A stretch of DNA of 64,000 nucleotides from Mangrovimonas cancribranchiae (lineage in GTDB: Bacteria; Bacteroidota; Bacteroidia; Flavobacteriales; Flavobacteriaceae): positions 2,434,001-2,498,000 of the forward strand of contig NZ_CP136925.1 in assembly GCF_037126245.1 (NCBI RefSeq), in the 5' to 3' direction. The notes beneath the pieces were generated by a model. The model had not been told where the DNA came from, made no database searches, and saw nothing but the letters and a program-made list of their open reading frames with translations. A program made the position numbers and the translations under genes. Shown here one piece after another: positions 389 to 14,424 of this stretch; position 1 is the stretch's first letter, and each line of letters opens with the position of its first letter.

Positions 389-616
389 TTATAATAAAGC
401 ACTTTCCCTTATAGGTTCTCCTATTTTATTATAAAACAACAACACTTCAACAGGCCTTAACTTACTTTTCTTTTTCGCTTCATCTAAAGTAATATTCCTG
501 TTATTAGCAATAATAGGATTAATGTACTTAGCCACTTCTTTACTATTCATTTGCAGATCACGACTTAACGCACCCTTGTAGCTGGGCTTTACCTTTTTGG
601 CTTCATCTAAATTCAT
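389..616 (-). CDS. Small hydrophilic protein of the element, function unknown
   Basis: This 75-residue protein is encoded opposite to the long rightward gene run of the element. It is taken as real because its start is preceded, 12 bases upstream, by the element-specific 15-nt motif in one-mismatch form (ACCAAGTAAATACCA, minus strand 643-629). The sequence is rich in Lys and Asn and carries the string LDEAKK twice (near residues 3-8 and 44-49), suggesting an internal duplication. I see no clear helix-turn-helix. Lying alone across a divergent control region, it might regulate the element, but that is inference from position only. Confidence 0.6.
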   Translation of the reverse strand: MNLDEAKKVKPSYKGALSRDLQMNSKEVAKYINPIIANNRNITLDEAKKKSKLRPVEVLLFYNKIGEPIRESALL

Positions 617-628
617 AAAATTTGGTTT

Positions 629-643
629 TGGTATTTACTTGGT
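629..643 (-). promoter_or_regulatory. Element start-site motif, copy upstream of the 75-aa gene
   Basis: The minus strand reads ACCAAGTAAATACCA, one mismatch from the 15-nt motif found exactly at 4172, 5251, 9520, 10903 and 12477. It ends 12 bases before the ATG at 616. Confidence 0.6.
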
Positions 644-690
644 ACGGTAAAATTACGCCGCTATCCAATTAAAATCAAGCCAAATAATGT

Positions 691-842: not shown

Positions 843-2603
843 TTGAGTTTGGATATAGAAGCAGTAAACCAGTCATTAAAACGCCCTATTAAGTCAGGTA
901 AAAAATATGAAAAGTTTTTCCCTAACGCATCATGCGAACGTACTTTTTTAGGAAGTGGAAATACCGATTTTTCACTAGAAAAAATGCAAGAATGGACATT
1001 ACAGCATGTAGATCAAGCTAAAGCCATTGCTAAACATTTAAACACTAGCAACAGGGCTAAACTTATAAAAAACATACATCGTTTTTTATTCGATCATGTA
1101 CAGTACGAAATCGACAAAGGCGATCAGTATATTAAAAGTCCTGCTTGTGCTTGGACTTCAAGGCAACAAGGCAACGATTGTAAAACCTATGCTGCCTTTG
1201 CAAGTGCTATTTTACTTAATCTTGGAATACCTCATTATTTCAGAAAAGTAAAACAAGCATATTACAACCCTAACTACTGGACACATGTTTACGTCGTAGT
1301 ACCAAACTCAAATAAAAAGAACGATTATTTAATAATAGATGCCACCGTTGCAGATAATAAAGAGCCTGTTATGGTAGATAAAAAAGATTTATTTATGAGT
1401 GTTAATTTAAAGCATTACGGACTAGCAGCAACAACCCAAGCAACATGTTCTTGTGGTTGTGGTACTTGCAATGATAGCAATGATGCATTGGCAGCTTCAA
1501 AGCCAGAAAACACAAAACAAAAGCTTCAAACATTAGCCGACAACTTTAATGCGCTTTTAGATGTTTTAGAACATAAAGGCGTGCCTACTTATGTTACCGA
1601 TTATGCCATGCAGCGTGTTAAAATGTTCATAGATAAAGACCAAAACCCAAGCATGTCACAAGTATTTGGGCAATACAAATCTTTAGTACAAAGCGTAATT
1701 ACATCTAATGGATTAAACGCTTCTGGCGACGAAACACAAACCGACCAAGAATATACCGTTGTTGATGGTGCTATTGATAGTGTGTTAACCGATATGGAAG
1801 ATGAGGATTGGTGGAGTAGCCTATTTAGCGGCATAGACTGCTGGGGCGGTTCTGCTTACGATCAATGGGAGCTTGATGGTGATAAACAAAAGTTAAAAAA
1901 CATCATGGCTAATCATGTAAGCAATATCAATCAAGCTATTGCTAATCAAAACATGGTGGCCTTGTCACAAGCTGTATCAGATTTTAAAGGTGCTGCGTTT
2001 GTTTCTGTTAAAACGTTTAACCAAAAGATTTGGGATAACGACTGGAACAGCTGTACAGAGTCTAGGCTTAATAATATCCGTGATTTTTCAAAAGTATTTA
2101 GAGATAAAGCAATTCCTGCATTAGACGCTTATTTATCACAATACTTTAGTGTTTCAAATAGCGGACAAACAAACACGTATAATAGTGAAAGCGTTGGCCT
2201 AAATCCATTATGGGCGGGTTGGGTGCGACCAGTAAAAAAACATAATGTTTCAGTTAACAATTACACTTTTAAAACAGGTGTAGAGTCTATTCCTGCATTT
2301 ATTATAAATGACTTTGTTGTTAATAATGTTATTGACAATCAAAACTCTAACAGCTTTTTTGAAACGCTTACCAATACCGTTTTAGAAGTCGTTGAAGAAA
2401 TCAACAACGATAATGGCGGTTCTACTACTGGTAGTACTACAGGAAACACCAATACTGGTGGATCAACCACAGGAAACAATAACACAAGTGGCGGCAATGT
2501 GCAAACAGCCAGTATGGGTGGCGTATTACCTGTATTATTATTGTCTGGTGTAGCATATGGCGCATATACCATATATAAAAATAAAAAGTCTGAAACCAAG
2601 TAA
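843..2603 (+). CDS. Transglutaminase-fold protein with C-terminal membrane anchor, first gene of the element
   Basis: 586 residues. An upstream stop at 819 and no in-frame ATG before residue 48 leave TTG at 843 as the likely start. Residues about 75-170 look like a transglutaminase/cysteine-protease core: Cys113 (GNDCKTY), His148 (WTHVYV) and Asp166 (IIDATV) fit a catalytic triad. A Cys cluster follows at 202, 204, 206 and 209 (CSCGCGTC). Near residue 530 a Gly/Thr/Asn linker leads into a final hydrophobic helix (about 563-578) and a Lys-rich tail, so the protein is probably tail-anchored in a membrane. It may be a virion or entry protein that cleaves or cross-links a substrate; that role is inference. 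It lies 1 base ahead of the next gene. Confidence 0.75.
   Translation: MSLDIEAVNQSLKRPIKSGKKYEKFFPNASCERTFLGSGNTDFSLEKMQEWTLQHVDQAKAIAKHLNTSNRAKLIKNIHRFLFDHVQYEIDKGDQYIKSPACAWTSRQQGNDCKTYAAFASAILLNLGIPHYFRKVKQAYYNPNYWTHVYVVVPNSNKKNDYLIIDATVADNKEPVMVDKKDLFMSVNLKHYGLAATTQATCSCGCGTCNDSNDALAASKPENTKQKLQTLADNFNALLDVLEHKGVPTYVTDYAMQRVKMFIDKDQNPSMSQVFGQYKSLVQSVITSNGLNASGDETQTDQEYTVVDGAIDSVLTDMEDEDWWSSLFSGIDCWGGSAYDQWELDGDKQKLKNIMANHVSNINQAIANQNMVALSQAVSDFKGAAFVSVKTFNQKIWDNDWNSCTESRLNNIRDFSKVFRDKAIPALDAYLSQYFSVSNSGQTNTYNSESVGLNPLWAGWVRPVKKHNVSVNNYTFKTGVESIPAFIINDFVVNNVIDNQNSNSFFETLTNTVLEVVEEINNDNGGSTTGSTTGNTNTGGSTTGNNNTSGGNVQTASMGGVLPVLLLSGVAYGAYTIYKNKKSETK
2444..2461 (+). repeat. 18-bp repeat shared by two linker regions, copy 1
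   Basis: AAACACCAATACTGGTGG occurs here and again at 3366-3383 in the linker of the next gene, with a variant near 3463-3480. The sharing is at DNA level, so the two linkers have probably exchanged or duplicated sequence. Confidence 0.6.
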
Positions 2604-2604
2604 A

Positions 2605-3594
2605 ATGAGCAACTTAGAAAGTCTTAAAACATACAACCAAACTGTACCTATTGAGCAAACAGCTGTAGGGCGAATTATAGAACAAAGAATAGCATCTCAA
2701 CAAGAAGCTTCTAGATTATTAAATGATGGTTTTAGTTTTCAAGAAATTACTTGGACAACAGCATTCACAACTGTAGGCGTTGCTATAGGAGGGCCAATTG
2801 GCGGTCTTGTTGGTGGTATAGTTGGCGGTGTTGTAGATAGTTGCACAAAAAACAGAGACAATGCTAGAGCTAGAGGTATTAATCTAGATGATTATGTTGC
2901 TTATCCATTAACAGGAATTGAAGAAGTCGTCTTTTTAAAATGGTTTGATGATTATGCAGTACCAACATTCAATATTATTATAGAAGATGTTGATGCTATG
3001 ATTGAAAGCCAAGGTAGTGTTAACCAATCTGTAATAGATAAGGCCAACGAGGTCTTTAAAGCATTAGCCGTAATGGAAGCTTACAAAGATAGAATGAAGA
3101 GCTTGTCGATTTCATTTGAGGGTAGCGAAAACATAGTGAATAACAAAGTTTCTGTTATTGAATTTGGCGTAAATGCAGTTAGAAATTCGCTTCTAGATTA
3201 TTTAGAAGAAAACACAACTAACTACGAAGCTACTACAGAAACGATTACAGCTTCTAGTGTTAACAAAATTGGCGAAATGTCGCTGTTTTGGAAAGATACT
3301 ACGGTAACAACTACAACCATAAAATTTGTAGAAACAACACCTAATAATTCTGATGCCAGTACAGAAAACACCAATACTGGTGGTGATGAAAATACAGGTG
3401 GTTCAAGCACAGAAAACACCAACGATAGTGGTGGTTCAAATACAAGTGGTTCAAACACGGAAAACACAAATACTGGTGGATCAACAAACCCAGAAGAAAC
3501 AACCGAAACCAAAAAATTCAATTGGGGAAAACTAGCCTTTTTTACGGCTGTAGGTATAGGCGTTTCAAAGCTGGTAAAAAAAGATAAAAAATAG
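2605..3594 (+). CDS. Membrane protein with glycine zipper and tail anchor
   Basis: About 329 residues from ATG 2605; longer frames reach back into the previous gene, but this ATG directly follows its stop and sits in ACCAAGTAAAATG, which resembles the element motif. Residues about 48-75 form a glycine-zipper membrane segment (AIGGPIGGLVGGIVGGVV). The middle is helical and hydrophilic. The C-terminus repeats the plan of the preceding protein: a long Asn/Thr/Gly/Ser linker built of ENTNTGG-like units, a hydrophobic helix (LAFFTAVGIGVSKL) and a Lys-rich end. I recognise no family. Glycine zippers are common in membrane-inserting virion and pore proteins, so a membrane role fits. Confidence 0.7.
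   Translation: MSNLESLKTYNQTVPIEQTAVGRIIEQRIASQQEASRLLNDGFSFQEITWTTAFTTVGVAIGGPIGGLVGGIVGGVVDSCTKNRDNARARGINLDDYVAYPLTGIEEVVFLKWFDDYAVPTFNIIIEDVDAMIESQGSVNQSVIDKANEVFKALAVMEAYKDRMKSLSISFEGSENIVNNKVSVIEFGVNAVRNSLLDYLEENTTNYEATTETITASSVNKIGEMSLFWKDTTVTTTTIKFVETTPNNSDASTENTNTGGDENTGGSSTENTNDSGGSNTSGSNTENTNTGGSTNPEETTETKKFNWGKLAFFTAVGIGVSKLVKKDKK
3366..3383 (+). repeat. 18-bp repeat shared by two linker regions, copy 2
   Basis: This is identical to 2444-2461. It encodes the ENTNTGG unit of the Asn/Gly linker. Confidence 0.6.
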
Positions 3595-3646
3595 GATTTT
3601 CTTAAAAATCAACATAAATAATTTATTAACTAAAAACACAAATCAA

Positions 3647-4129
3647 ATGTTTAAAAAACCAAACACCAAAAAAATTGCAGACAACGGTACTAAAATCGGT
3701 GCTGGCGTTGTAGGAGCGGCTGTTTCGGATGGACTTGTTGGTTTAGTGCCTAAAGAGTACGAAAAGTACAAAAAGTGGGGTAAACCTGCGTTTGCATTGG
3801 CAATGGCTATTGCAGCTGCGGCCGTAGATACAAAAAGTACAGGCGGGAAAATCACACAAGGCGCTTTAGCTGGTATGTCTATCAAACAAGGCCTAGATGC
3901 TTTACGTGAGCTTGTTTTATCTAAAGTAGATAAGCAAGAGGGCGAAACAGCAATGGCACGATTTACAAACCACGTTACAGGCTTAGCCGCTGGAACTGTA
4001 GAAGTACCAGAAGTTACTGTAGACTCTTCAATGTTTCAACGTAACAGAGGGCAACAACACCAAATTCCAGCAGCGAAACAAGACATGTTAGCAATGGCAC
4101 AAAAAGAAACTAACAACATGTTAGCATAG
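3647..4129 (+). CDS. Ala/Gly-rich membrane protein of the element
   Basis: 160 residues from ATG 3647 after a 52-base gap. Two hydrophobic Ala/Gly-rich stretches are visible, near residues 17-33 (IGAGVVGAAVSDGLVGLV) and 48-60 (AFALAMAIAAAAV), with a polar C-terminal third rich in Gln and Met. No family is recognised. Its place directly ahead of the capsid-candidate genes, with other membrane proteins around it, suggests a structural membrane protein of a virion, but this rests on context alone. Confidence 0.65.
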   Translation: MFKKPNTKKIADNGTKIGAGVVGAAVSDGLVGLVPKEYEKYKKWGKPAFALAMAIAAAAVDTKSTGGKITQGALAGMSIKQGLDALRELVLSKVDKQEGETAMARFTNHVTGLAAGTVEVPEVTVDSSMFQRNRGQQHQIPAAKQDMLAMAQKETNNMLA

Positions 4130-4171
4130 TCTTTACCAAGCGTTACGCTGAAAATTAAAAAAGATTTAAAA

Positions 4172-4186
4172 ACCAAATAAATACCA
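4172..4186 (+). promoter_or_regulatory. Element start-site motif, exact copy
   Basis: ACCAAATAAATACCA ends 9 bases before the ATG of the 196-residue capsid candidate. Confidence 0.65.
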
Positions 4187-4195
4187 ATTACCAAA

Positions 4196-4786
4196 ATGAG
4201 AACACTTATTACCAAGGCCAGAGCCTTATCATATTTAGAAATTCCAAAGGTAAAACACGATTTACCACAGGACACGCAAAGACGTATTGCAAGCAAATCG
4301 TTAGCGTTAAAAAAGACAACCGCCGTTATTAGAAAACAGATCAATATCGGTCAAGGAACTATTCCTTTAATCACATCTAACACACAAGAAGAAACAGGGG
4401 TTTCAACTTTCGAGGGTGACAGATTACCAGACAGAAAAAACATCGTATTTAATGCCGTTGCATTAGGTTACGGTACGCACGCCACAGACTCAGACAAAGC
4501 AGCTGTAATTAATTACGACGCTTCTTTAATTCCTAGTTTACGTAACGCAGAATTAGAGATTAAAAGTGATGGTAAAGTTGTTGCTACTGTACAATGTAGC
4601 GAATTTTCTAACGATTTAGCCGCTGCATCTGGAAGAGACCTTTACTTTGATTTAGGTGGTGAATACATGATTAGAGAGGGTAAAAAGTTTGAAATAAACT
4701 TAAAATTCCCAGAGGGCGCAACTGGTGGCGGAACGGTAGATTACGTAGAAGTACGTTTAGATGCTATCGCTACTAGCGAAAACTAA
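4196..4786 (+). CDS. Candidate major capsid protein of the element
   Basis: 196 residues, ATG 4196 preceded by the 15-nt motif. The N-terminal 55 residues are basic; the rest alternates short hydrophobic stretches with polar turns, as in an all-beta fold (for example NIVFNAVALGYG, NAELEIKSDGKVVATVQC, VDYVEVRLDAIA). It has no membrane segment or signal peptide. A strong intrinsic terminator follows directly, which is usual behind a highly expressed structural gene. It is followed by two more small proteins that look beta-rich. On this basis I infer a jelly-roll-type major capsid protein; sequence alone does not prove it, and a spike or minor capsid protein is the alternative. Confidence 0.5.
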   Translation: MRTLITKARALSYLEIPKVKHDLPQDTQRRIASKSLALKKTTAVIRKQINIGQGTIPLITSNTQEETGVSTFEGDRLPDRKNIVFNAVALGYGTHATDSDKAAVINYDASLIPSLRNAELEIKSDGKVVATVQCSEFSNDLAAASGRDLYFDLGGEYMIREGKKFEINLKFPEGATGGGTVDYVEVRLDAIATSEN

Positions 4787-4832
4787 AATTTTCTTTCATA
4801 GCCATAGTTTAAATTTTATTGTTTAACATCCT

Positions 4833-4866
4833 AAAAAGCCCTGCCTATCATTGGGCAGGGCTTTTT
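4833..4866 (+). terminator. Intrinsic terminator behind the capsid candidate
   Basis: AAAAAGCCCTGCC (4833-4845) pairs perfectly with GGCAGGGCTTTTT (4854-4866) around an 8-base loop, ending in a T-run. It splits the element's gene run, so genes from 4883 on depend on readthrough or another promoter. Confidence 0.85.
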
Positions 4867-4882
4867 ATCTAAAACAAAAATC

Positions 4883-5245
4883 ATGTCAAAAACCACATAC
4901 GAAGTTGTAACCGTTACATTAGATGCTAATGCACCTACTGCTAATGAAAAAATCAACTTACCAGAGGGTAGATGTCACCGTGTAGGAGTTGCCATTATAG
5001 ATGGTAACGTTGCAGAACCTATCAATCTTGCCATTTTAGACAATTCGGGAAACGATGTTATAAAAGCGCACGATCATAGTTTTTGGCTACAAAGACAAGG
5101 TGGCGATTACTTAGACAGCTTAAAGCCTGTCGATTTTGAGTGTAATAGAACTATTAAACCAACTGTTTTATGTCCAAACACTCAAGCAGGATCTATAACC
5201 TTTCAATTTGTGTTTTATATATCACAAAGCGGAACGGACTATTAA
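4883..5245 (+). CDS. Small protein, probably beta-rich, possibly minor capsid
   Basis: 120 residues from ATG 4883, just after the terminator. It has no signal peptide or membrane segment. The sequence alternates hydrophobic and polar residues and closes with a strand-like TFQFVFYIS. It is similar in character, though not visibly in sequence, to its neighbours on both sides. I place it with the candidate capsid group (penton, spike or cement protein), which is inference from fold tendency and gene order. Confidence 0.55.
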   Translation: MSKTTYEVVTVTLDANAPTANEKINLPEGRCHRVGVAIIDGNVAEPINLAILDNSGNDVIKAHDHSFWLQRQGGDYLDSLKPVDFECNRTIKPTVLCPNTQAGSITFQFVFYISQSGTDY

Positions 5246-5250
5246 AAAAC

Positions 5251-5265
5251 ACCAAATAAATACCA
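5251..5265 (+). promoter_or_regulatory. Element start-site motif, exact copy
   Basis: ACCAAATAAATACCA ends 6 bases before the ATG at 5272. Confidence 0.65.
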
Positions 5266-5271
5266 ATAATC

Positions 5272-5544
5272 ATGTTTAAAAAAGGCAGTTTTCAAAGTGA
5301 AATACTCGTAAAAGACGACCAGCATTATCCGTTACTAGGCAAAGCCGATGTTGTATTTCAAAATGCAGGTGATGACAATGTAAAAATAGGCTTAAGAACC
5401 TTAAAGCCTACAGAAACATTGCGCATTTGTGGTGAAAACACCGTACTAACTAACGAGTCTATAAATGTAAAGTTTGAGGGTAATGGGGCTTCCCCTATGC
5501 TATGGGTACATTTTATACTGCCTTTACAACATGATTGCAATTAA
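5272..5544 (+). CDS. Small protein, probably beta-rich, in the capsid-candidate group
   Basis: 90 residues, starting MFKKGSFQSEIL. It contains predicted strands such as ADVVFQNAG, NVKIGLRTL and MLWVHFILPL, with no membrane segment. The spacing of 26 bases to the previous gene is filled by the 15-nt motif. No family is recognised; a virion surface or cement protein is the likeliest role from context. Confidence 0.55.
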   Translation: MFKKGSFQSEILVKDDQHYPLLGKADVVFQNAGDDNVKIGLRTLKPTETLRICGENTVLTNESINVKFEGNGASPMLWVHFILPLQHDCN

Positions 5545-5555
5545 TACCACGCAAC

Positions 5556-6485
5556 ATGAATAAAGAACATATTTATAACAACAAAAATATTGATAGGGTT
5601 AACGATTGGCTAAATAAGCCAAAACACGCTATTCAAATTATCAATGCCGATACAGGTGTAGAAATACGTTTTACACCTAATCCAGATAATCCAAAAAGGC
5701 ACTTTGCCAATTGGACACTTGACGACATTTTAAGCCGATCAAGTAATATTTACGAGTTTTTTATAAACCTGTATGAAAAAGATATACAAGCATTTATTGT
5801 CAAGCTAAAAAAACCTAACGGTACTAGCTATAAAGTACAAGACACCTTTAAAATTGAATTAGTTGAAAATTCCATGTTGCGGAATGGTGAGGACAAAGGC
5901 GCAACACAGGTTGCGCCAGTCCAAACCACACCAACAGAACCAAATTATCAAAATCATAGCCCTATGCAACATTTAGGCGGTTTAGGAGCTGCGGCACAAG
6001 CAGCTGGATTAGGCTTTAACGATTTAGTTAATCTTAAGGCAAAGGCCGAAAAATACGACGAGCTTAAAGAGCAATTCGATGAGCTAAAAGCCGACAAACG
6101 CAAGCTTGATCTTGACAATAAAGAGCTTCAAAGCAAGGTTAACACAGCGGCAAAGGAATTAGATTTAGCCATTAAAGAAGCTAAACTAGATCAAAAGGGT
6201 ATTATGGACTCACCTGCTGTAACAAAATTAGCAGAGTCTTTGCCTACGTTTATTCCTTTGCTATTGGAACAAAAACACGCTCATAGTGGTAATCACAGTT
6301 CTAATGCTAAACTAGAGCAACCAGAGCTTTCAGAAAGCAAACAAGGCTTAATAGATTGGATTAAAAGCGATGATATTACAGACGAAGTGGCCGAAAACTT
6401 CTACAGCGTAGTACTTCATCACGCTAATAGTTCTGATGAATTTAGAGCCGAATTACAACAATTATTAAACAAACACACCGCATAA
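5556..6485 (+). CDS. Coiled-coil protein of the element, function unknown
   Basis: About 309 residues. A TTG at 5535 would give a longer frame overlapping the previous gene, but ATG 5556 is preceded by AATACCA, the end of the element motif, and is preferred. The first 100 residues look like a compact alpha/beta domain (HAIQIINADTGVEIRF, FIVKLKKPNG). A Gly/Ala-rich patch at about 138-155 is followed by a clear coiled coil (about 160-215, KYDELKEQFDELKADKRKLDLD) and an acidic helical C-terminus. It could be an assembly, scaffold or DNA-binding protein. Confidence 0.6.
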   Translation: MNKEHIYNNKNIDRVNDWLNKPKHAIQIINADTGVEIRFTPNPDNPKRHFANWTLDDILSRSSNIYEFFINLYEKDIQAFIVKLKKPNGTSYKVQDTFKIELVENSMLRNGEDKGATQVAPVQTTPTEPNYQNHSPMQHLGGLGAAAQAAGLGFNDLVNLKAKAEKYDELKEQFDELKADKRKLDLDNKELQSKVNTAAKELDLAIKEAKLDQKGIMDSPAVTKLAESLPTFIPLLLEQKHAHSGNHSSNAKLEQPELSESKQGLIDWIKSDDITDEVAENFYSVVLHHANSSDEFRAELQQLLNKHTA

Positions 6486-6488
6486 AAT

Positions 6489-6680
6489 ATGGAAACAACT
6501 GTAATAGTAACAGCAAGTAACCCAATAGAGTTGCAGCAAAAGTTAAAGGCTATAGAAGCCGTTAAAAATTTATCTGGTAAAGAATGTAGTAACCTTACCA
6601 AATTAGCCAATAGTGATAAAGCTAGAGGATATTTAAAAAGCGATACAAAGTTTGGTATTCTAAGCCTAGGTTTAAAGTAA
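6489..6680 (+). CDS. Small unidentified protein
   Basis: 63 residues, beginning METTVIVTASNPIELQ, only 3 bases after the previous stop and 15 before the next start, so probably translated in the operon. It looks like a soluble helical protein with a basic C-terminal half. No family is recognised. Confidence 0.55.
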   Translation: METTVIVTASNPIELQQKLKAIEAVKNLSGKECSNLTKLANSDKARGYLKSDTKFGILSLGLK

Positions 6681-6695
6681 AAAATTATTAATTCA

Positions 6696-7451
6696 ATGAG
6701 CAAACAAGGTTTATCAAATCCATTAATAACAGCGGCCACATCGGCTATAACAGCTAAAGCTACATCTAAAGCTACAGATAAAGGCGGTGAGTTTTTGTCT
6801 AAAAATGCTAAAACCATATTTGTAACGCTTGGCGCTGTAGTGTTAGCTTATTTTGGCTATAAAGCTTATAAAAAATGGCGCATACAAAAGTTTTTAGATG
6901 CTAATGCACACAAACCAGACGTACAGGCGGCCATGATTATCTATAAAGCTATCCATAGAGTAAACCTAGGCTTTATATCTAATTGGTTTGATATACCAGA
7001 TGGTACAGACGTTGAAGCATTAAACAATCTGGCTATTAATATTAATAGCTTACAAGATGTTTCACGAGCCTACAAAATTGTTTTTGGCGAAAACTTACAT
7101 CAAGATATACAAAGCGATTTATCGAGTGATGAACTTTTAGAATTTTATAACCGCTTAAAAGTTAATGCTAGTAGCCAAAGTATAAATGCTGAACCTGTTT
7201 ATTTAATCGGCGAAGATGTTTTTGCTAGAAAAAACACAGGTGTTATAACTACTAAAGCAGAAATTATAAACGACCGTTGGACAAACACCGAAGAGTTTTA
7301 TAAAAAATATGAATACGGCGAAAAGCTAGGAAAAATAGAAGCTATTATAAACGATCCTTGGCAACCAGAAAACACCGTTTACATAATAGATGTTCCTTGG
7401 TCTTATGTTGAAATATGGGTAAGACATGACGACGTAGAAAACAACCTTTAA
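6696..7451 (+). CDS. Single-span membrane protein of the element
   Basis: 251 residues. An Ala/Thr/Lys-rich N-terminus (about 1-35) leads into one membrane segment at about 42-57 (IFVTLGAVVLAYFGYKAY), followed at once by a basic patch KKWRIQKF. The remaining 190 residues form a soluble domain with several Trp near the end (NDPWQPENTVYIIDVPWSYVEIWV). The plan, membrane helix then lysines, recurs through this element. No family is recognised. Confidence 0.65.
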   Translation: MSKQGLSNPLITAATSAITAKATSKATDKGGEFLSKNAKTIFVTLGAVVLAYFGYKAYKKWRIQKFLDANAHKPDVQAAMIIYKAIHRVNLGFISNWFDIPDGTDVEALNNLAININSLQDVSRAYKIVFGENLHQDIQSDLSSDELLEFYNRLKVNASSQSINAEPVYLIGEDVFARKNTGVITTKAEIINDRWTNTEEFYKKYEYGEKLGKIEAIINDPWQPENTVYIIDVPWSYVEIWVRHDDVENNL

Positions 7452-7462
7452 AAACAAGCCAA

Positions 7463-7999
7463 ATGAATACCATAACCAACAATAGTTGCTTTTCAGATTT
7501 AATGAAACCAACAACCCAAACCATGAGTAAAGAAGTTGCAAAAGACACCGTTGCAGAAATACCACAGGAAATGCTTAAAGTTCCAGACGTTAAAGGTCGT
7601 GTTATAGATGAATTTGGCGATCCTGTACCAAATGCAAATGTGTATTTGCAAAGCAATAATTCTATTGGCGTTTCAACTGATGCTAATGGGGAGTTCTTAA
7701 TTGAGTGGGTACAAGCTGGTGAAGTAATTATAGTTAGTCACCTAACGTTTAAAAACGTCAGTTTCATACATAAAGACAGCAACTATAAAGAAATTGTTTT
7801 ACAAGTTGAAACCCAACAACTAGACGAAGTTACCCTAACAAATAAAAAATTTGCTTGGGGATGGGTTTTGGCAGCCATAACAGCTGGAACACTTATTTAC
7901 AATGCTAATAAAAGCAGTAAAAAAAAAGCAGCTAAAAACAGCTTAAATGCCGCAGCACCAAAAAAGCAAAAAAAACAACCTATTAAAGTTACGATATAA
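7463..7999 (+). CDS. Carboxypeptidase-regulatory-like domain protein with C-terminal anchor
   Basis: 178 residues from ATG 7463; the motif variant GCCAAATGAATACCA (7459-7473) overlaps this ATG, so the true start may be ATG 7502 or 7523. Residues about 37-98 match the CarboxypepD_reg-like fold: KGRVIDEFGDPVPNANVYL, then STDANGEFLIEW, the usual Ig-like unit at the N-terminus of TonB-dependent receptors and surface proteins in Bacteroidota. A membrane helix (WGWVLAAITAGTLIYN) and a Lys-rich tail follow. The domain may bind a host surface partner; this is inference. The stop overlaps the next start (TAATG). Confidence 0.65.
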   Translation: MNTITNNSCFSDLMKPTTQTMSKEVAKDTVAEIPQEMLKVPDVKGRVIDEFGDPVPNANVYLQSNNSIGVSTDANGEFLIEWVQAGEVIIVSHLTFKNVSFIHKDSNYKEIVLQVETQQLDEVTLTNKKFAWGWVLAAITAGTLIYNANKSSKKKAAKNSLNAAAPKKQKKQPIKVTI

Positions 8000-8529
8000 T
8001 GTTAATATACGAGTCACAAGTACCTGCTAGTTACAGACAAGAATTTATAGATGCTGTACGCTATTACGCAAACAAACTTAGCATTAATCCTAATTGGTTA
8101 ATGGCTGTAATGTATTTCGAGAGCGCAAAAACATTTAGCCCTAGTGTGCAAAATCCATATACAAATGCCACAGGACTAATACAGTTTATGCCAGCAACCG
8201 CCAACGAGTTAGGCACAAGTATAAATGCACTTAAAAATATGACTGCGGCCGAACAAATGTACTATGTATATAAGTATTATGTAAGGTATAAATCAAAGCT
8301 AAAAAGCTATGTCGATTTATACTTAATTACATTTTTTCCTTTAGCCGCTGGAAAGCCCTTAAACTTCATTTTGCAAACAGCAACGTTACCAGCTTCTTTA
8401 ATAGCTAATCAAAACCCTGTGTTTGATCTTGATAATAACGGTCAAGTAACCGTAGGCGAAATACAAAAGGTTATGCTTAACAAAATTCCTGCAAGCTGGA
8501 TAAACGAGTTTAAAAAAAAAAGGTATTAG
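7999..8529 (+). CDS. Lytic transglycosylase, soluble frame
   Basis: 176 residues in this frame. The SLT/goose-lysozyme-like core is clear: Glu41 in MYFESAKTFSPS is the likely catalytic acid, followed by ATGLIQFMPATANELG. Near residues 146-157 an EF-hand-like loop DLDNNGQVTVGE could bind calcium. It would cut the peptidoglycan glycan strand during entry or release of the element's virion. The frame ends in a run of ten A (8512-8521) followed shortly by a stop, and a membrane-anchor coding segment lies directly beyond in the -1 frame (see next entry). Start ATG overlaps the preceding stop. Confidence 0.85.
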   Translation: MLIYESQVPASYRQEFIDAVRYYANKLSINPNWLMAVMYFESAKTFSPSVQNPYTNATGLIQFMPATANELGTSINALKNMTAAEQMYYVYKYYVRYKSKLKSYVDLYLITFFPLAAGKPLNFILQTATLPASLIANQNPVFDLDNNGQVTVGEIQKVMLNKIPASWINEFKKKRY

Positions 8530-8609
8530 GGTTCGCTTACCTTTTAGCATTTTCGGTTTTAGGCTATATAAGTATTAAAGAGTATCAAAAAATTAAGAAA
8601 AAACAATGA
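8514..8609 (+). other. -1 frame extension encoding a membrane anchor for the transglycosylase
   Basis: From the A10 run the -1 frame reads KKKVLGFAYLLAFSVLGY and then ISIKEYQKIKKKQ, stop at 8607-8609. It has no usual start codon, but it is a textbook membrane helix with a Lys-rich tail, like the C-termini of neighbouring proteins. Its stop overlaps the next ATG at 8606 (ATGA), as expected for a coupled gene. Slippage on A10, or a one-base deletion in the genome or assembly, would join it to the transglycosylase. Confidence 0.65.
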
Positions 8610-9358
8610 GTGAATATTTAGGTGTACATAGAAAAGGAGCAAACAAAGAGGATATTGAAAATTTGTCCATAGACATTAACGCTAACGAACAGAATATTGA
8701 TGATAATTTCAATGCTATAACTGTACTATCAGATGAAACTGTTAAGCGAATAGACAACATACAAATAAAAACATCATGGGCTAATAGTAAAGATGATGGA
8801 GCGGTTAACCCCAAAAGGCGATACTCTGCAAGAATTGATGGTAATGTTAATTTATTGAGTCTTACGTTTCAAGATTTTAGCCCTTTAAATTTAGAGTCAA
8901 CAAGAGGTGTATTAAAATATTATTTATTAATTGATAGGTTTAGAAATCAAGAATTTAAAGGTTCAGGTAAGGAATACAGAAAAGCGGGCTATAAACACGA
9001 GGTTATAGATGAAAAATCATCAACTAACAAAATTAATACGGTGTTGATAGATAGCCCAAATATGATTTTAGACTTCAATCAAGATTATTACTTTAAACAA
9101 TACAACGGTATATACACCGACAAAGTTACTTTTCCAGCACCTACAGGCGTAAGTACAGGGCGTAACCAAATGGGTTACACAAATAGGCTTACAAACAATG
9201 TTAGAAAAGGATTTGTTGACTTAGCTTTTAGAATTAGGGTTGATTCTAAAGGTAGAATATTGCATGAAACACCCTATTTAGGGTTTATAAGAATGTTAGC
9301 TACTAATGATAAAATACTAGACAGAAGATTAATAACATACGTTAATAGGCAATATTAA
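8606..9358 (+). CDS. Unidentified protein of the element, possibly spike or receptor-binding
   Basis: 250 residues starting MSEYLGVHRKGANKED. Residues about 15-55 look helical (IDINANEQNIDDNFNAITVL); the rest is rich in Tyr, Asn and aromatic residues and seems largely beta. No signal peptide or membrane segment is present. As the last gene before a repeat-containing gap and the lysis genes, and following the transglycosylase, it could be a vertex or receptor-binding protein, but I cannot identify it. Confidence 0.55.
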   Translation: MSEYLGVHRKGANKEDIENLSIDINANEQNIDDNFNAITVLSDETVKRIDNIQIKTSWANSKDDGAVNPKRRYSARIDGNVNLLSLTFQDFSPLNLESTRGVLKYYLLIDRFRNQEFKGSGKEYRKAGYKHEVIDEKSSTNKINTVLIDSPNMILDFNQDYYFKQYNGIYTDKVTFPAPTGVSTGRNQMGYTNRLTNNVRKGFVDLAFRIRVDSKGRILHETPYLGFIRMLATNDKILDRRLITYVNRQY

Positions 9359-9388
9359 CATTAAAAATATTTAAAATTTACAAGTTTC

Positions 9389-9487
9389 ACCCGATGCGGT
9401 CAAGCCTAGGGAGAAATTGTAACCCACCCGATGCGGTCAAGCCTAGGGAGGGATTAAGGGATACCCGACACGGCCAAGCCTAGGGAA
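9389..9487. repeat. Three GC-rich 25-bp repeats with an exact 37-bp period
   Basis: Copies start at 9389, 9426 and 9463. The first two are identical over 25 bp; the third differs at a few positions but keeps GG.CAAGCCTAGGGA. Each begins ACCCG and ends CCTAGGGA, so CCC and GGG can pair and GG/CC can close a UCAAG loop, giving small stem-loops if transcribed. The GC content stands out against AT-rich surroundings. They fill the 186-base gap between 9359 and 9545 and contain no gene. Confidence 0.8.
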
Positions 9488-9519
9488 TCCGACCAGAAGT
9501 TTAACACCTCAAATTAAAA

Positions 9520-9534
9520 ACCAAATAAATACCA
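9520..9534 (+). promoter_or_regulatory. Element start-site motif, exact copy
   Basis: ACCAAATAAATACCA ends 11 bases before the ATG at 9546. Confidence 0.65.
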
Positions 9535-9545
9535 ACCAACTACTT

Positions 9546-9851
9546 ATGAATTTTGACACAGTATTAACCATGATTTTAGGCGGCACGAACATAGCGACTT
9601 TAATAGGATTTGTAACCGAGCGAAATAAACGGAAACACGAAGTTTCCATAAAAGAAGCCGATGCCTTGAAAAGTATGCGAGAACAATACACCGTTTTTGT
9701 TGAGGATATGAAAAAAGATCGTGAAGAACTTAAAAAAGAAAAAGACGAAGTTAAAAAAGAAGTATTAGAGCTAAAAAAGTACTCTAGGCAAGTCACCAGA
9801 AAATTACAAGAAGCTGAAATAAAGTGTAACAACAAATGCTTTACAAAATGA
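9546..9851 (+). CDS. Holin-like protein with coiled-coil tail
   Basis: 101 residues. One membrane segment lies at the very N-terminus (about 4-23, DTVLTMILGGTNIATLIGF); the rest is a highly charged coiled coil (KKDREELKKEKDEVKKE). A tiny one-span protein next to a spanin-like lipoprotein and near a lytic enzyme fits a holin or pinholin-like lysis role, but the same shape is found in phage proteins of unknown role. The stop overlaps the next start (ATGA at 9848). Confidence 0.55.
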   Translation: MNFDTVLTMILGGTNIATLIGFVTERNKRKHEVSIKEADALKSMREQYTVFVEDMKKDREELKKEKDEVKKEVLELKKYSRQVTRKLQEAEIKCNNKCFTK

Positions 9852-10447
9852 AAACCAAAAAAGATAAAATAGAGATAGTTTGTAATGTTATTTTTTACAT
9901 TCTTGTTGCTACGGTAGTAGCTATCTTTTTTATGGTTTCAAGCTGTGCAACAACCCAAACAGCCAACCAAACAACAACCGTTGCTAAAGATAGTTTTTCT
10001 GTTAAAACAGATAGTGTAAAAACCAATAAGGTAGAAACTAAAAATGAAACACTTTACAAAGGGTTTAAAGAAGCGTTTAATATTTATCCAGACACATTAA
10101 CCAATAAACTACCAGAATACAAACGTAGGTTTAATAATGGTGCTGTTAGTGGTGAAGTAGGCTATTCTAAAAAAAGAGGTGCTTATTACGATATTGAAAC
10201 CAAAGACTTAAAAGAAACCGATCATAAAATAGAAACCGACACTACCAAAACCAGTAAACAGGACACCAAATCAAAAACGTTTATAGATACGGTTTCAGAA
10301 ACGGTTTTAGTAACTAAAAAATGGGGGCGTTTTCAATGGATAACATTTATTATAAGCCTAGCAGTAGTAGTGTATATCGTTTATCGAGTTTATAAATTTA
10401 TTAATGGTGGTTTTCTGTCCAAAATAGCTAAAAAAATAACAACATGA
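9848..10447 (+). CDS. Lipoprotein with C-terminal membrane span, unimolecular-spanin-like
   Basis: About 199 residues from ATG 9848, chosen over an upstream ATG because it gives the ATGA overlap with the preceding stop. The N-terminus carries a hydrophobic segment ending in a lipobox (VAIFFMVSSC, Cys near 33). A charged, Thr/Lys-rich periplasmic region follows, then a membrane helix near the C-terminus (WITFIISLAVVVYIVYRVY). An outer-membrane lipid anchor at one end and an inner-membrane helix at the other is the layout of unimolecular spanins, which disrupt the outer membrane in phage lysis. Identity is inferred from topology and neighbours. The stop overlaps the next ATG. Confidence 0.55.
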   Translation: MKTKKDKIEIVCNVIFYILVATVVAIFFMVSSCATTQTANQTTTVAKDSFSVKTDSVKTNKVETKNETLYKGFKEAFNIYPDTLTNKLPEYKRRFNNGAVSGEVGYSKKRGAYYDIETKDLKETDHKIETDTTKTSKQDTKSKTFIDTVSETVLVTKKWGRFQWITFIISLAVVVYIVYRVYKFINGGFLSKIAKKITT

Positions 10448-10893
10448 AAAAAGGACTACTCATAACATTAGCATCACTAGGTGGCTTAGTTTGGTTTTAT
10501 TCCAGTAATACCAAAAAATACTTAAGCGTTGGCGAAAATTTAGATATTAAGCTAAAACGCCTTAACGATATTAACTACAGTAATGGCGTAATAACCGCCA
10601 ATGTAAATGTAGCTATTGTTAATAATACCAATATTGAAACAAGTATAACCAAATTAGCAACGCTTAAAAAACTAGTTTTAATAAGTAATGCAAGCGGGGC
10701 AATTCTGGCCGAAAGTTACCCTAACATAAACGGTATTGTTTTAAATGCCAACGGAGAAACCCTAATACAAAATATAGAAATTACAGCCACAACCCAAGCG
10801 GCTTTATCGGAGTTTATTAAAAACCAATTTAAAGGCGATTATAAAGTAAAAGCAACTGTAAACGCATTTGGTAAAGATTGGGTATTGGGCTAA
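10444..10893 (+). CDS. N-terminally anchored beta protein, LEA type 2-like
   Basis: 149 residues. It starts with a short membrane anchor (GLLITLASLGGLVWFY) and continues as a beta-rich domain with alternating strands (VITANVNVAIVNNTNIETSI, GETLIQNIEITATT). The pattern resembles LEA type 2 / WHy-like domains, where an N-terminal anchor carries one immunoglobulin-like unit, but the match is by eye only. It overlaps the preceding gene by 4 bases. Confidence 0.5.
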   Translation: MKKGLLITLASLGGLVWFYSSNTKKYLSVGENLDIKLKRLNDINYSNGVITANVNVAIVNNTNIETSITKLATLKKLVLISNASGAILAESYPNINGIVLNANGETLIQNIEITATTQAALSEFIKNQFKGDYKVKATVNAFGKDWVLG

Positions 10894-10902
10894 TTTTACA
10901 GA

Positions 10903-10917
10903 ACCAAATAAATACCA
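10903..10917 (+). promoter_or_regulatory. Element start-site motif, exact copy
   Basis: ACCAAATAAATACCA ends 4 bases before ATG 10922 and so decides that start over an upstream one at 10868. Confidence 0.65.
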
Positions 10918-10921
10918 CATC

Positions 10922-12514
10922 ATGCCACTACCAAAAATTGTAAATAGCAAACATTTAGCCTATGCTAAAAAAGAATTAAAGCTAATTAATAGTTTTTACA
11001 AGGTAATAGACACCAAAAAAACTATAAGCTTTACAACTATTAAAAAACAACGTGATGCGTTTGTTTTATTAGCAAAAAACAGCCAGCAATTTCAATCAGA
11101 AGTTTTTAAAAACACCTTAAAAAAGGTAATAAGTATTTACAATAAATCACAACCATTAAAAAGTGATGTCGATTTGCATGTTGAAGATAAAGCGTATTTA
11201 AAACACTTAAAGCAGTATGTAAAATACAATTCTACAAAAGAAATTCTATTGCTTGAAAAGTATGCAAAAATACAAGGCTTTAGCCCTGCATACCAAAAGG
11301 CCGAAACGTTGTTTAATGAGACTATAGATATTTTATTTAATGGTACCATAAATAAGCAATCCATATTTAGCGACTCGCTTTACGAAGTCATTTTCGAGCT
11401 TAATATGTATATGTTACATTTTAAAGACTCAAAAAAACATAAATCATTAGGCGCAAACCAAAATACAAATACAAATGAGACCAGAAACCCTAATAGCTAT
11501 ATTGTTATTGATAGTTTTGATAATAATTCTAGTAGTTCGCAAACCGAAACCGAAAGACTAACCGAAGTAAAAAAGGAAACTGCTACACCAGATCAAAACA
11601 AGGAAGCAAAGCAAACACCAACGGTAACACCTGTTAATAATACAACCGAAACCGACACACCAAACAAAGAAAATGTTACAAAACAAGAAACAAGCGTTAC
11701 ACAAATAGAGGTTGTCGAACCTAAAGAGGTTAAACCACAACCAACACAAGAACCTAAAAAGACTTCTATTCCTGCTGAATTACGAAAACTTGGTATTACT
11801 AGCATGAACGACACGCCAGAAGCCAATAACGAAGTGTTTAAAATTACTGGCGATATAGCCGAATTTCTTGGTAAAATAGAACGCAAACCAAAAGGGAGTG
11901 TTTCCATGACTTTAGATGCGGAACAAGGTGCGGGAAAAACACGCTTTGTTTTTCAAATGTTAGACACCTTTGCGGCTCATGGTTATAGATGTTTATTTCC
12001 ATCTTTAGAAGAACACCCAGACTCTAATTTATTTATTGAAAAACGTGATGAATACATAAACCCAGCGCACCGCCATTTAATACATAACATTGGCGAGTTA
12101 AGAAATGGGTTTGCTACATTACAACAGCTTATTCCATTTTACGATGTTGTATTTATAGACTCATGGGGAAAGCTGGTCGAACTTAACAGAAAATTAGACT
12201 TTGATCGTGATTTGCGTAAAGCGTTTGATGGGAAACTGTTTGTAGTTATTTTCCAAAGAACATCCGACGGCAAAATGCGTGGTGGTAGCCGTTCGGCTTT
12301 CGATGCCGATTTAGTTTGCCGCATAGAAAAAGCCGATGATTACCGTGATACTTACGCCTATTTTAATAAAAATAGATACCAAGATACACCACTAAATCAA
12401 CTTAAATATAACATCTATTCTAAAACACTTCTTAAAGAAGAAACAACAGACATTACAGGAATAGACTTTGAAAAAGACCAAATAAATACCAAAAAAGATT
12501 ACATACTACTATGA
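10922..12514 (+). CDS. RecA/DnaB-superfamily P-loop ATPase of the element
   Basis: 530 residues from ATG 10922 (motif-supported). Residues 1-160 are helical and basic, about 190-290 are a Thr/Glu/Pro-rich linker, and about 310-510 form the ATPase. Walker A is EQGAGKT with Lys339, Walker B is VVFIDSW with Asp413, and KMRGGSRSAFDADLV resembles the RGS...DAD segment of RadA/DnaB-type ATPases. It could be a replication or recombination helicase, or a DNA-packaging motor. It lacks obvious features of large terminases (no nuclease domain). It overlaps the next gene by 4 bases. Confidence 0.7.
   Translation: MPLPKIVNSKHLAYAKKELKLINSFYKVIDTKKTISFTTIKKQRDAFVLLAKNSQQFQSEVFKNTLKKVISIYNKSQPLKSDVDLHVEDKAYLKHLKQYVKYNSTKEILLLEKYAKIQGFSPAYQKAETLFNETIDILFNGTINKQSIFSDSLYEVIFELNMYMLHFKDSKKHKSLGANQNTNTNETRNPNSYIVIDSFDNNSSSSQTETERLTEVKKETATPDQNKEAKQTPTVTPVNNTTETDTPNKENVTKQETSVTQIEVVEPKEVKPQPTQEPKKTSIPAELRKLGITSMNDTPEANNEVFKITGDIAEFLGKIERKPKGSVSMTLDAEQGAGKTRFVFQMLDTFAAHGYRCLFPSLEEHPDSNLFIEKRDEYINPAHRHLIHNIGELRNGFATLQQLIPFYDVVFIDSWGKLVELNRKLDFDRDLRKAFDGKLFVVIFQRTSDGKMRGGSRSAFDADLVCRIEKADDYRDTYAYFNKNRYQDTPLNQLKYNIYSKTLLKEETTDITGIDFEKDQINTKKDYILL
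12477..12491 (+). promoter_or_regulatory. Element start-site motif inside the end of the ATPase gene
   Basis: An exact ACCAAATAAATACCA lies within the coding end of the ATPase gene and ends 19 bases before the next ATG (12511). Its conservation inside a coding region argues for selection on the nucleotide sequence. Confidence 0.6.
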
Positions 12515-14424
12515 TAACAGGATTAATACTAGGTGCAGCCATAGACAGATTATTTTTAACCAAAAAAACACCAAAAAGCAAGTCAAAACCTATTCACCCA
12601 GAAAGTTTAGGAATACCTTACCTAAATCCAAAGGCTGAAAAAGAATTAATAGACAATCATGCTGGATTAGGTAAGGCCATAACATCTAATGATGTTTATG
12701 ATATGATTACTAAACAGATAATTGATACTATTGATAAAACAGGTCATTTGCCTTGGTACACGGGGCGTGATGAAAACGTTGGTAAAGGCGTTTCATTAAA
12801 CATAGATACACCTTATAACTTTGATACATTAAAAGCTTACCGTGGTATTAATGCGTTTATGTTAAGCCTAAAGAAAACAGAGGGTAAAGATAAGAATGGT
12901 AATAAAGTTATTTATTTAGATCCTATTCAAGATGGCCGCATGTATTGGTTAACCTTTAAACAAATTGAAAAACTTGGTGGAAAAATTAAAAAAGGTACAC
13001 GATCATCACAGGCTATTTATTACAACTTCATCTTTAAGTATGGCAACGATACAATAAGTGAAAAAAAATACAAGCAACTGTTTAAAAAATACGGTTCAAA
13101 AAATAGTCCTAATTATAACGTACAGGAAGCTAAGAAGCTTAAAAAAATACCGTTTGTTAGGTATTACAACGTGTTTAATGAACGTGATATAACAGGAATT
13201 AATTTTGAAGCTAAACGTAAAAAGCAACAAGAAAAATTAAAGCAGTTTGAAAGTAAAGCTAAAAAAATAAAAGCGGCCGATGCGTTGTTTAACAACATGC
13301 CTAAAAAACCAAAATTAGTACAACGCCATATCGGATCTGGTGAGTCACCGCATTATACGCCAAATACCGATGCTATAACAATGCCACTAAAGCAACAATA
13401 CAAAGATGTTGGTATATGGTATGGTACATTATTTCACGAGTCTATACATGCTACAGGTCACAGAAGTAGGCTTAATAGAGGGCTTTTAAAAGATTATCAT
13501 TTAGATGTTCGTGTTAGAGCCTTGGAAGAACTGGTAGCAGAATTAGGAAGTGCTTTTTTAAATGCCGAAAGTGGTATTTTCTTAAGTACATTAAAGAAAA
13601 ATGCCGCATACATTAAAGGTTGGAGTAAAAGCGTAAAAGAAACGCTACAAGAAAACAACAAAGCTATTTTTGTGGCCGCTGGTTACGCTCAAAAAGCTGC
13701 CGATTACATTCTAGATCGTGATAAAAATGGTACACCTAAGTTTTACAACGATATTTCAAATATTGACAATACAAGTAATTTAGAAAAAAGAGTTATTAAA
13801 CACTTAGAAAAAATGAGCCATGAACAATTTGCAAATGATTATGCTTATTTGTTTAGTGCTGATTTAGATAAAGTTTTATACAGAATTGAAGATAACAACA
13901 CCTATAAAAAGTATGTTAAATTACTAGCAAAAAAAGTAATAAAAGACAATCGTTTTGATGATGTTAGGTTTGATAATTTAAAACAAAGCGAACAATTATC
14001 GTTGTTTGGTTCTTCTGGAATAAATGTTTCTACAGAGAGATTTAAAAAAATGAAAGTTTCTGAATTAAGAGATTTTACTCTAAAGTACTACAATGCTAAA
14101 CTAAAAGGAAATAAAACTTATAGCAAGTACTTAAATGAAATTGTATTTACAACTAAAGCAGGTAGAAAAATATCTAAAGGTTCAGCTATGTATAAAGAAA
14201 AGGCTGCTGTAATTGAACGTCTTGAAGAGCTTATAAAAAAATCCACATATAACAATTGGGGTGATCGAAAAAAAGCAGATCCAAAGAACTTGTTGGGGTA
14301 TCTTAATTTTAAATCTAAGTTAATTATTGACGGTAAAAAACGTCATGTTAGAATTTCTATAATATTAAATTCTGACAGAAAAACTCACCTAAAAGGTATT
14401 GAAGTTGGAAAAACAAAAAAATAG
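12511..14424 (+). CDS. ardC: ArdC-type antirestriction polyvalent protein with zincin domain
   Basis: 637 residues. A short hydrophobic N-terminus (ITGLILGAAIDRLFL) precedes an ArdC N-terminal domain (about 55-220: YDMITKQIIDTIDKTGHLPW, then YRGINAFML), a single-strand-DNA-binding module known from antirestriction proteins. A zinc metallopeptidase domain follows with HESIH at 309-313 and a downstream Glu in EELVAELGSAFL. The C-terminal 140 residues add a further domain (LLGYLNFKSKLIIDGKKRHV) like those attached to phage and plasmid polyvalent proteins that travel with the DNA and protect it on entry. That role is inferred from the family. It is the last gene of the rightward run. Confidence 0.8.
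   Translation: MITGLILGAAIDRLFLTKKTPKSKSKPIHPESLGIPYLNPKAEKELIDNHAGLGKAITSNDVYDMITKQIIDTIDKTGHLPWYTGRDENVGKGVSLNIDTPYNFDTLKAYRGINAFMLSLKKTEGKDKNGNKVIYLDPIQDGRMYWLTFKQIEKLGGKIKKGTRSSQAIYYNFIFKYGNDTISEKKYKQLFKKYGSKNSPNYNVQEAKKLKKIPFVRYYNVFNERDITGINFEAKRKKQQEKLKQFESKAKKIKAADALFNNMPKKPKLVQRHIGSGESPHYTPNTDAITMPLKQQYKDVGIWYGTLFHESIHATGHRSRLNRGLLKDYHLDVRVRALEELVAELGSAFLNAESGIFLSTLKKNAAYIKGWSKSVKETLQENNKAIFVAAGYAQKAADYILDRDKNGTPKFYNDISNIDNTSNLEKRVIKHLEKMSHEQFANDYAYLFSADLDKVLYRIEDNNTYKKYVKLLAKKVIKDNRFDDVRFDNLKQSEQLSLFGSSGINVSTERFKKMKVSELRDFTLKYYNAKLKGNKTYSKYLNEIVFTTKAGRKISKGSAMYKEKAAVIERLEELIKKSTYNNWGDRKKADPKNLLGYLNFKSKLIIDGKKRHVRISIILNSDRKTHLKGIEVGKTKK

Follow-up and report, generated by a model that had tools for sequence, protein, structure and literature searches.

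What kind of element occupies a chromosome when a compact set of phage-like genes comes with no recognisable terminase, portal or tail gene? The question arose from a 64,000-nucleotide stretch of Mangrovimonas cancribranchiae (hereafter the window; bases 2434001-2498000 of the single-contig 3.085-Mb genome, NZ_CP136925.1), in which an initial annotation had read positions 389-14424 as a possible tailless, membrane-containing virus, an undescribed integrated relative of the Flavobacterium phage FLiP. Here, we find that this segment is the right-hand part of a 30,021-bp element which, judged from its genes and from structural models, is very probably the temperate provirus of a tailless virus belonging to an apparently unreported lineage. 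The tailless character of the virus is well supported, and a virion containing a membrane is plausible.

The element lies inside a tRNA-Leu gene and is bounded at both ends by exact 56-bp attachment (att) repeats. The left copy, attL, was found at positions 5670-5725 of the left-flank stretch L002 (genome 2419670), 14.3 kb to the left of the window, and the right copy, attR (window 15691-15746, no strand assigned), is situated within the integration target, tRNA-Leu(taa) (window 15692-15777, minus strand). The rightward run of genes does lie where the initial annotation placed the whole element, but the element itself extends from L002:5670 to window 15746. The integrase and left boundary, which had been suggested to fall outside the window or to have escaped recognition, were both located to its left: a tyrosine-type integrase is encoded just inside the left end (L002:5841-7139; phrog_1, E 4.5e-29) and is followed by a phage-type repressor (L002:8166-8912; phrog_4, E 2.5e-16), which diverges from a rightward early operon encoding a 700-amino-acid (aa) protein and an endonuclease VII/HNH-like protein. 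A genome of the same genus (G028) preserves the empty site. In this genome, the genes for MutS (98% identical) and for the left neighbour (92%) are adjacent, and the stretch concerned (L125) carries an intact tRNA-Leu gene with a single copy of the 56-bp repeat and aligns to the joined flanks of the element with 95.6% identity over 1,004 bp; the element is therefore precisely inserted. A second same-genus genome (G255) was left out of this comparison because MutS and the best left-flank match lie on different contigs.

If this is a virus, which protein builds its shell? Two of the three small proteins that had been noted as beta-rich, of 196 and 120 residues, were modelled as eight-stranded beta structures, and both resemble capsid folds. 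The AlphaFold2 model of the first (o196; window 4196-4786, plus strand), built from 31 sequences, has a predicted local distance difference test score (pLDDT) of 90.8 and a predicted template-modelling score of 0.87, and consists of short N-terminal helices followed by eight strands that form one barrel. When the model was realigned against 990 chains with VIA, the best match was SPV1 (Portogloboviridae), with 149 residues aligned at 4.1 Å and 8% identity and a Z score of 8.8, barely higher than the 7 to 8 that unmatched models often reach. Ranks 2 to 5 were taken by SH1 (6.9), P23-77 (6.8), HCIV-1 (6.8) and HHIV-2 (6.7), so that the top five are all tailless icosahedral viruses, of which SPV1 alone stands clear of unrelated rows. 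The first four matches of a Foldseek search against the PDB were SH1 (E 8.7e-5), SPV1 (2.6e-4), the KHP40 cement protein and SH1 again. The SPV1 chain in question, 6oj0_A, is presumably the major capsid protein VP4. VP4 in turn has P23-77 VP17 as its own best DALI match, with a Z of 7.5, as given in the relevant part of PMC8812541. We propose o196 as the candidate major capsid protein, with a predicted single jelly roll.

The second protein (o120; window 4883-5245, plus strand; pLDDT 92.1) was modelled as a small jelly roll, and at the head of its structural matches stand capsid chains of Pam1 and KHP40, FlhE and generic jelly rolls. That this list differs from that of o196 under the same procedure indicates that the method does not automatically return the major capsid proteins named above. 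Profile comparisons revealed no homology between o196 and o120 (probability 2.3%) or between o120 and the 90-residue protein o90 (0.1%). o120 is best described as a second small jelly roll, a candidate minor capsid or penton protein or second shell protein.

A further sign comes from the arrangement of the operon. Directly 3′ of o196 lies a terminator-like hairpin (window 4833-4866, plus strand), and our own detector found a terminator no more than 100 nucleotides (nt) past the o196 stop codon in 30 of 54 loci (shuffle mean, 0.3). Terminators were sought after 12 of the 17 late families, and the remaining eleven yielded 0 to 2 cases each (0-5%), one of them, o345, having been scanned in just 7 loci. 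Counted by intergenic gap, terminators occurred in 27 of the 53 gaps after o196 and in none of six other, shorter gaps. Since the hairpin sequences vary among loci, it is the position that has been kept and not the sequence. This placement is an independent sign that o196 is the main virion protein. In other phages, such a terminator serves over-expression of the capsid gene, and by analogy it may do so here.

How widespread is the module, and is it maintained? With o196 as the query, 8 of 299 genomes of the family were matched, our own included. A 31-sequence profile (A4) had matches in 8 of 395 genomes sampled from the phylum and in 12 of 296 sampled from the order (own genome included; the samples partly overlap), reaching into other families of the order and class. 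A four-sequence alignment of the transglutaminase-like protein encoded by the first late gene recovered 61 loci in GTDB genomes (56 genomes by title), comprising 25 in Flavobacterium, 16 in Tenacibaculum, 4 in Capnocytophaga, 2 in Aquimarina, 7 in single genera, 5 in other flavobacterial genomes, 1 labelled Bacteroidetes and 1 labelled Neisseriaceae; the last, in a metagenome-assembled genome (L087), is probably a mis-binned contig. Environmental hosts of relatives include Leeuwenhoekiella polynyae LMG 29608 (L048) and Cochleicola gelatinilyticus LPB0005 (L032). Together with 3 loci from IMG/VR, 5 further genomes and our own, these make up 70 distinct locus sets (72 in all, two genomes occurring twice), short contigs and closely related Flavobacterium elements among them. 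o196 was found in 60 of the 70 and o120 in 58. Gene order is largely kept even in distant relatives, with members missing or replaced. In eight other families, pairwise distances are correlated with the o196 distances (r 0.83-0.96; in each case 0 of 999 permutations reached the value, with the two duplicate genomes retained in the matrices). Among close pairs, the median ratio of nonsynonymous to synonymous substitution (dN/dS) was 0.055-0.078 in eight of nine families and 0.17 in o90; the pairs are non-independent, and in six of the nine families median dS is close to 1 or higher. The late module co-evolves and is under purifying selection. att repeats in tRNA-Met were found in relatives as well, being 45 bp long and 34.0 kb apart in G143, 45 bp and 23.8 kb apart in G193 and, more weakly, 21 bp and 26.5 kb apart in G039; no att repeats were found in the DNA examined from G128 and G224.

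One might argue that the element is simply a tailed phage, so diverged or decayed that its terminase, portal and tail genes go unrecognised; after all, some 87% of PHROG families have no function attached, and relatives carry genes with fibre and minor-tail labels. However, PHROG scans of the 39 open reading frames (ORFs) of the element, and Pfam scans of 30 of them, gave no terminase, portal, HK97 or rolling-circle initiator family, so that the Caudoviricetes hallmarks that had gone unseen in the annotated segment were equally unmatched in the DNA that separates attL from the window, as were tail families. The sole strong tail-labelled match, to phrog_196 (baseplate hub, E 5.6e-34), is the lytic transglycosylase; the remaining tail labels fall on the transglycosylase again or, with E values above 0.09, on a coiled-coil protein of 101 aa. 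Across 13 element-bearing genomes, searches with phrog_2 and phrog_12, which we take to be terminase and portal, were also negative within the elements: the terminase search, which is unspecific (11 of 14 control genomes were positive too), gave 14 weak matches, mostly to ORFs of 318-358 aa and none within the elements, and the portal search gave one weak match, on a different contig (4 of 14 controls positive). Each of the four elements with att repeats encodes one plausible P-loop protein, and the dN/dS values lie far below 1. On these grounds a tailed phage is scarcely credible.

The lack of a terminase or portal gene, together with the mobility and tRNA insertion of the element, would also suit a phage satellite that uses the capsid and tail of a helper. 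Against this stand elements of 23.8-34.0 kb, a large co-evolving late module with a capsid-like fold and a lytic enzyme of their own; moreover, no capsid-hijacking gene was named among the matches of the general PHROG scan, which was not a search aimed at such genes. We consider a satellite very unlikely.

The packaging ATPases of other tailless viruses were likewise sought. FtsK (PF01580) matched host genes in 13 of the 13 element-bearing genomes and HerA/DUF87 (PF01935) in 11 of them, none being inside an element, while 10 of 14 and 14 of 14 control genomes, respectively, were positive. Scanned for Walker A, the four elements with att repeats each yielded the one plausible P-loop protein; further matches to the pattern fall, by our own reading, in methyltransferases and an integrase. 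In our element, this protein (window 10922-12514, plus strand; Walker A AEQGAGKT; start at ATG 10922 rather than 10868) has no Pfam match of its own, and its relatives give weak, sub-threshold matches to KaiC (G128, E 8.4e-4), AAA_30 and AAA_24. From its sequence it reads like a RecA-type ATPase of the RecA/KaiC kind. Searches of solved structures with the P-loop and transglutaminase queries produced nothing useful. The next gene encodes an ArdC/MPTase polyvalent protein (window 12511-14424, plus strand; ArdcN 1.3e-19, MPTase-PolyVal 2.2e-26). ArdC-type polyvalent proteins are thought to enter with injected DNA, and by analogy this one is probably injected as well. Both genes had been recognised in the initial annotation; they are separate here and joined into one polypeptide in several relatives, and, counted as a single merged family, they occur in 43 of the 70 locus sets. 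The ArdC protein matched 56 phage records (56 also with a fused relative), with alignments spanning at most about half of the query, which argues for a shared domain and not for kinship. In G128 (L021:9255-12842) and at L128:40352-44209, a large SNF2/helicase or strawberry-notch-type protein is encoded near the P-loop gene; proteins of this type occur among the polyvalent proteins of large phages.

To which known viruses, then, is the element closest? In capsid fold, the best reading of the models is that its nearest counterparts are the archaeal portogloboviruses and helvetiaviruses. SPV1 has a single gene for a single-jelly-roll major capsid protein and no packaging ATPase, according to the part of PMC8812541 that deals with it. 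The element may share this lack of a packaging ATPase: it has no terminase or FtsK/HerA match, but it does encode a P-loop protein. In addition, the SPV1 host is archaeal whereas the hosts of the elements are Bacteroidota, and no sequence similarity was detected (o196 profile against the PDB); membership in the Portogloboviridae fails on host. The Helvetiavirae (P23-77, SH1, HCIV-1, HHIV-2 and SNJ1), four members of which hold VIA ranks 2-5 for o196, are now placed in the realm Singelaviria (PMC12451622, in the portion concerned) and include a temperate member, SNJ1 (PMC12642351). They possess two single-jelly-roll major capsid proteins and ATPases of the FtsK-HerA family (PMC8812541, same part). 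Here, by contrast, no FtsK/HerA match was found in the elements, the P-loop protein included (a comparison of sequences), and membership in the Helvetiavirae fails on this ATPase. As for the two-capsid-protein feature, the o120 model does form a jelly roll, yet the proteins that it matches best lie outside the helvetiaviral capsid proteins. The helvetiaviral virion is tailless and icosahedral with an internal membrane; a comparable virion is a prediction for the element. We conclude that the element seems to work like SPV1 and the Helvetiavirae and is best called a separate lineage. A search of the literature by titles and abstract openings, with preprints and most subscription papers outside its scope, gave no description of this group; an earlier description is possible.

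The kinship originally suggested was with FLiP, and one could more broadly envisage kinship with FLiP, PM2 or PRD1, with a capsid protein of the double-jelly-roll type. Finnlakeviridae (FLiP) and PhiCjT23 share flavobacterial hosts with the element and are tailless and lipid-containing (PMC9719478 and PMC13269007, in part), Bacteroidota harbour FLiP-like and PhiCjT23-like proviruses (PMC5894146 and PMC9719478, as far as their relevant passages go), and the FLiP penton appears at Foldseek rank 27 for o196. However, the candidate capsid protein has one barrel (the late proteins modelled were o196 and o120), and double-jelly-roll halves reached Z values of about 5.5 and lower in VIA. PRD1-type proteins also ranked low there, although a low rank does not exclude PRD1-type kinship. 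FLiP is a single-stranded DNA virus with a double-jelly-roll capsid protein (PMC5894146, passage on the virion), and proviruses of the PhiCjT23 kind, 6-8.4 kb in length, seem to rely on dif and XerCD (PMC9719478, part on proviruses); unlike these small genomes, the element is 30 kb long, has its own integrase and targets a tRNA gene. We therefore reject kinship with FLiP, PM2 or PRD1 on fold, size and integration route, and regard it as the least probable of the alternatives.

Must it be a virus at all? A non-viral integrative element or plasmid might display a jelly-roll appendage or nanoparticle that acts in adhesion, secretion or DNA uptake. Membrane segments are present in several late proteins, jelly rolls are known in cell appendages (Ena fibres are among the structural matches of o196 and o120), and a Persicobacter plasmid that holds a portion of the module carries ParA/ParB-type genes. 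This plasmid, of 53.2 kb, belongs to P. psychrovividus and also has a replication-initiation gene; no capsid-family member was detected in the 50 kb of it that the analysis covered, but one is present on a 1.07-Mb replicon. In Persicobacter sp. JZB09 (Cytophagales), the module is found on two circular records (47.6 and 48.8 kb), where no homologue of this integrase was detected, and again beside an Int homologue on a 632-kb replicon, where it is 94.5% identical over 10.4 kb to the 47.6-kb record. Related late modules thus travel both as an integrating provirus and as a plasmid-like episome. In this respect the Persicobacter relatives resemble phage-plasmids, whereas our own element is chromosomal with an integrase. 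Against a non-viral element, an integrase, a phage-type repressor, lytic enzymes, fibre-like proteins and an injected-type ArdC protein all occur together, the top fold matches are capsid proteins and the terminator is placed behind the gene of the candidate capsid protein; we consider such an element unlikely. A different situation is seen in G345, from another family of the class (L104-L107), where two copies of the late module lie about 105 kb apart with no P-loop/ArdC or integrase relative within 21 kb around each; these are possibly reduced or domesticated forms.

Several observations nevertheless weigh against a tailless provirus, beginning with the fact that the element is known solely from sequence and predicted structures, and that the virion membrane proposed by the initial annotation is something we infer. 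Besides the narrow lead of SPV1, VIA ranks 2-5 for o196 do not stand out from a phage tail fibre (6.5) and PHM enzymes (6.0-6.5), its Foldseek matches have query TM-scores of 0.35-0.50 and root-mean-square deviations of 6-8 Å, a viral-structure search of BFVD mixed plant-virus, circovirus and tail proteins without discrimination, and its profile found no sequence match among PDB chains. In relatives (fibre-like proteins occur in G143 and G144), the large late proteins fall into PHROG families that carry the labels tail fibre, minor tail and virion structural protein; we read these proteins as receptor-binding spikes. Our detector found no terminator after o196 in 24 of 54 loci, and the window hairpin was not reported by a second tool, perhaps because its T-run lies in the stem. 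Finally, IMG/VR gave 3 loci with a seven-sequence alignment and none with the four-sequence transglutaminase-like alignment or with o196 alone, and four queries found no match in INPHARED; accordingly, nothing in these collections shows free virions in nature.

The late operon as a whole comprises 17 plus-strand genes (window 843-14424) with gaps of -47 to +187 nt and stop-start overlaps, the compact rightward run that had originally drawn attention. It opens with the transglutaminase-like protein (843-2603, 586 aa; PF04473, E 4.5e-6; 69 of the 70 locus sets), which has a hydrophobic C-terminal tail, and continues with membrane proteins of 345 aa (o345; 2557-3594, 10 sets) and 160 aa (o160; 3647-4129, 59 sets), both recognised by hydropathy. 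Behind the two jelly-roll genes are three conserved proteins, o90 (90 aa; 5272-5544, 43 sets), o316 (316 aa; 5535-6485, 59 sets), which has a coiled-coil-like part and is a possible assembly protein, and o63 (63 aa; 6489-6680, 56 sets). These are followed by o251 (251 aa; 6696-7451, 56 sets), with a hydrophobic segment, and a 178-aa protein (7463-7999, 30 sets) with a CarbopepD_reg_2 domain (PF13715, E 3e-12) and a C-terminal hydrophobic segment. The lytic transglycosylase (7999-8529, 6 sets) matches PF01464 (E 1.5e-8), in agreement with its first assignment; near this position the relative G143 encodes a GH108 muramidase (endolysin; PF05838, E 2e-20). A variable 250-aa protein (8606-9358), present in 2 sets only, may be a spike, relatives carrying fibre-like genes hereabouts. 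Ahead of the P-loop and ArdC genes come those for a coiled-coil membrane protein of 101 aa (9546-9851, 12 sets) and a 203-aa protein with two membrane segments (9836-10447, 40 sets), both from hydropathy, and o149 (149 aa; 10444-10893, 45 sets), with an N-terminal hydrophobic segment. The many single-span membrane proteins first described are thus borne out in part: 4 of the 17 late proteins passed a strict hydropathy cut, but four more (843-2603, 6696-7451, 7463-7999 and 10444-10893) show hydrophobic stretches by eye only. The holin-like and spanin-like genes are unproven, family matches being weak or unnamed.

Other features of the element deserve mention. Upstream of the late operon, and frequently so in relatives, lies the gene for o75 (389-616, minus strand; 60 of 70 sets), a conserved 75-aa protein that matched no known family in the Pfam and PHROG scans and is a candidate regulator. 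The longest late intergenic gap holds three copies of a 31-nt unit, CACCCGATGCGGTCAAGCCTAGGGAG... (window 9388-9492; 37-nt spacing), copies 2 and 3 being 94% and 68% identical to copy 1; it could be an iteron, a regulator site or a packaging signal. Another motif, CCAAATAAATACCA, occurs 14 times in the whole genome, always on the plus strand and always within the element (window 4173, 5252, 9521, 10904 and 12478; L002 9082-13552), and 11 of the 14 copies sit 3-19 nt upstream of the ATG of an ORF of at least 61 aa. In G143 the leader motif is another one, CTATTTAAAAT, and 7 of its 9 copies are followed by an ATG after 7-12 nt. Such leaders are likely an element-specific translation or regulatory signal. 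Sigma-70-type promoters in our scan were below the shuffle level (42 versus 57.1). Between the early and late modules sits a leftward type IIG restriction-methyltransferase (L002:15193-19192; PDLC03616, E 1.4e-232), with a specificity subunit and a multi-span membrane protein; this system is probably cargo that defends the host.

How might such a virus operate? On induction, the provirus would be excised as a circle and replicated, and the late operon would then be transcribed, with o196 made in excess if the terminator behind its gene dampens downstream transcription. o196 would form an icosahedral shell, with the o120 jelly roll at special positions, and the membrane-anchored late proteins, the transglutaminase-like one included, may form or line an internal membrane. 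Packaging would proceed without a recognisable terminase or FtsK/HerA ATPase. When the virus enters or leaves, the transglycosylase presumably opens the cell wall, which the transglutaminase-like protein may help to digest. The ArdC and P-loop proteins may be packaged and injected, shielding the incoming DNA.

Haloarchaea, Sulfolobus and Thermus are the known hosts of viruses whose shells are built from single jelly rolls of this type. The Helvetiavirae have been proposed to descend from a portoglobovirus-like ancestor with one major capsid protein and no ATPase (PMC8812541, part on capsid evolution). One attractive, albeit tentative, possibility, to which we give somewhat less than an even chance, is that a large temperate lineage in Bacteroidota, with integrating and plasmid forms, has retained the portoglobovirus state of a single jelly roll and no FtsK/HerA and is the bacterial counterpart of this ancestor. 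A widespread bacterial group resembling that state would make the ancestor proposal testable by cryo-electron microscopy in culturable hosts. That the same query found 61 loci in GTDB and none in IMG/VR, a rough comparison given that the collections differ in size and that the search needs short conserved stretches, suggests that surveys relying on known hallmark genes overlook a common group. Host genera such as Tenacibaculum, Capnocytophaga and Flavobacterium matter for fish and human health, and the element brings along cargo of its own, in this case the type IIG restriction system.

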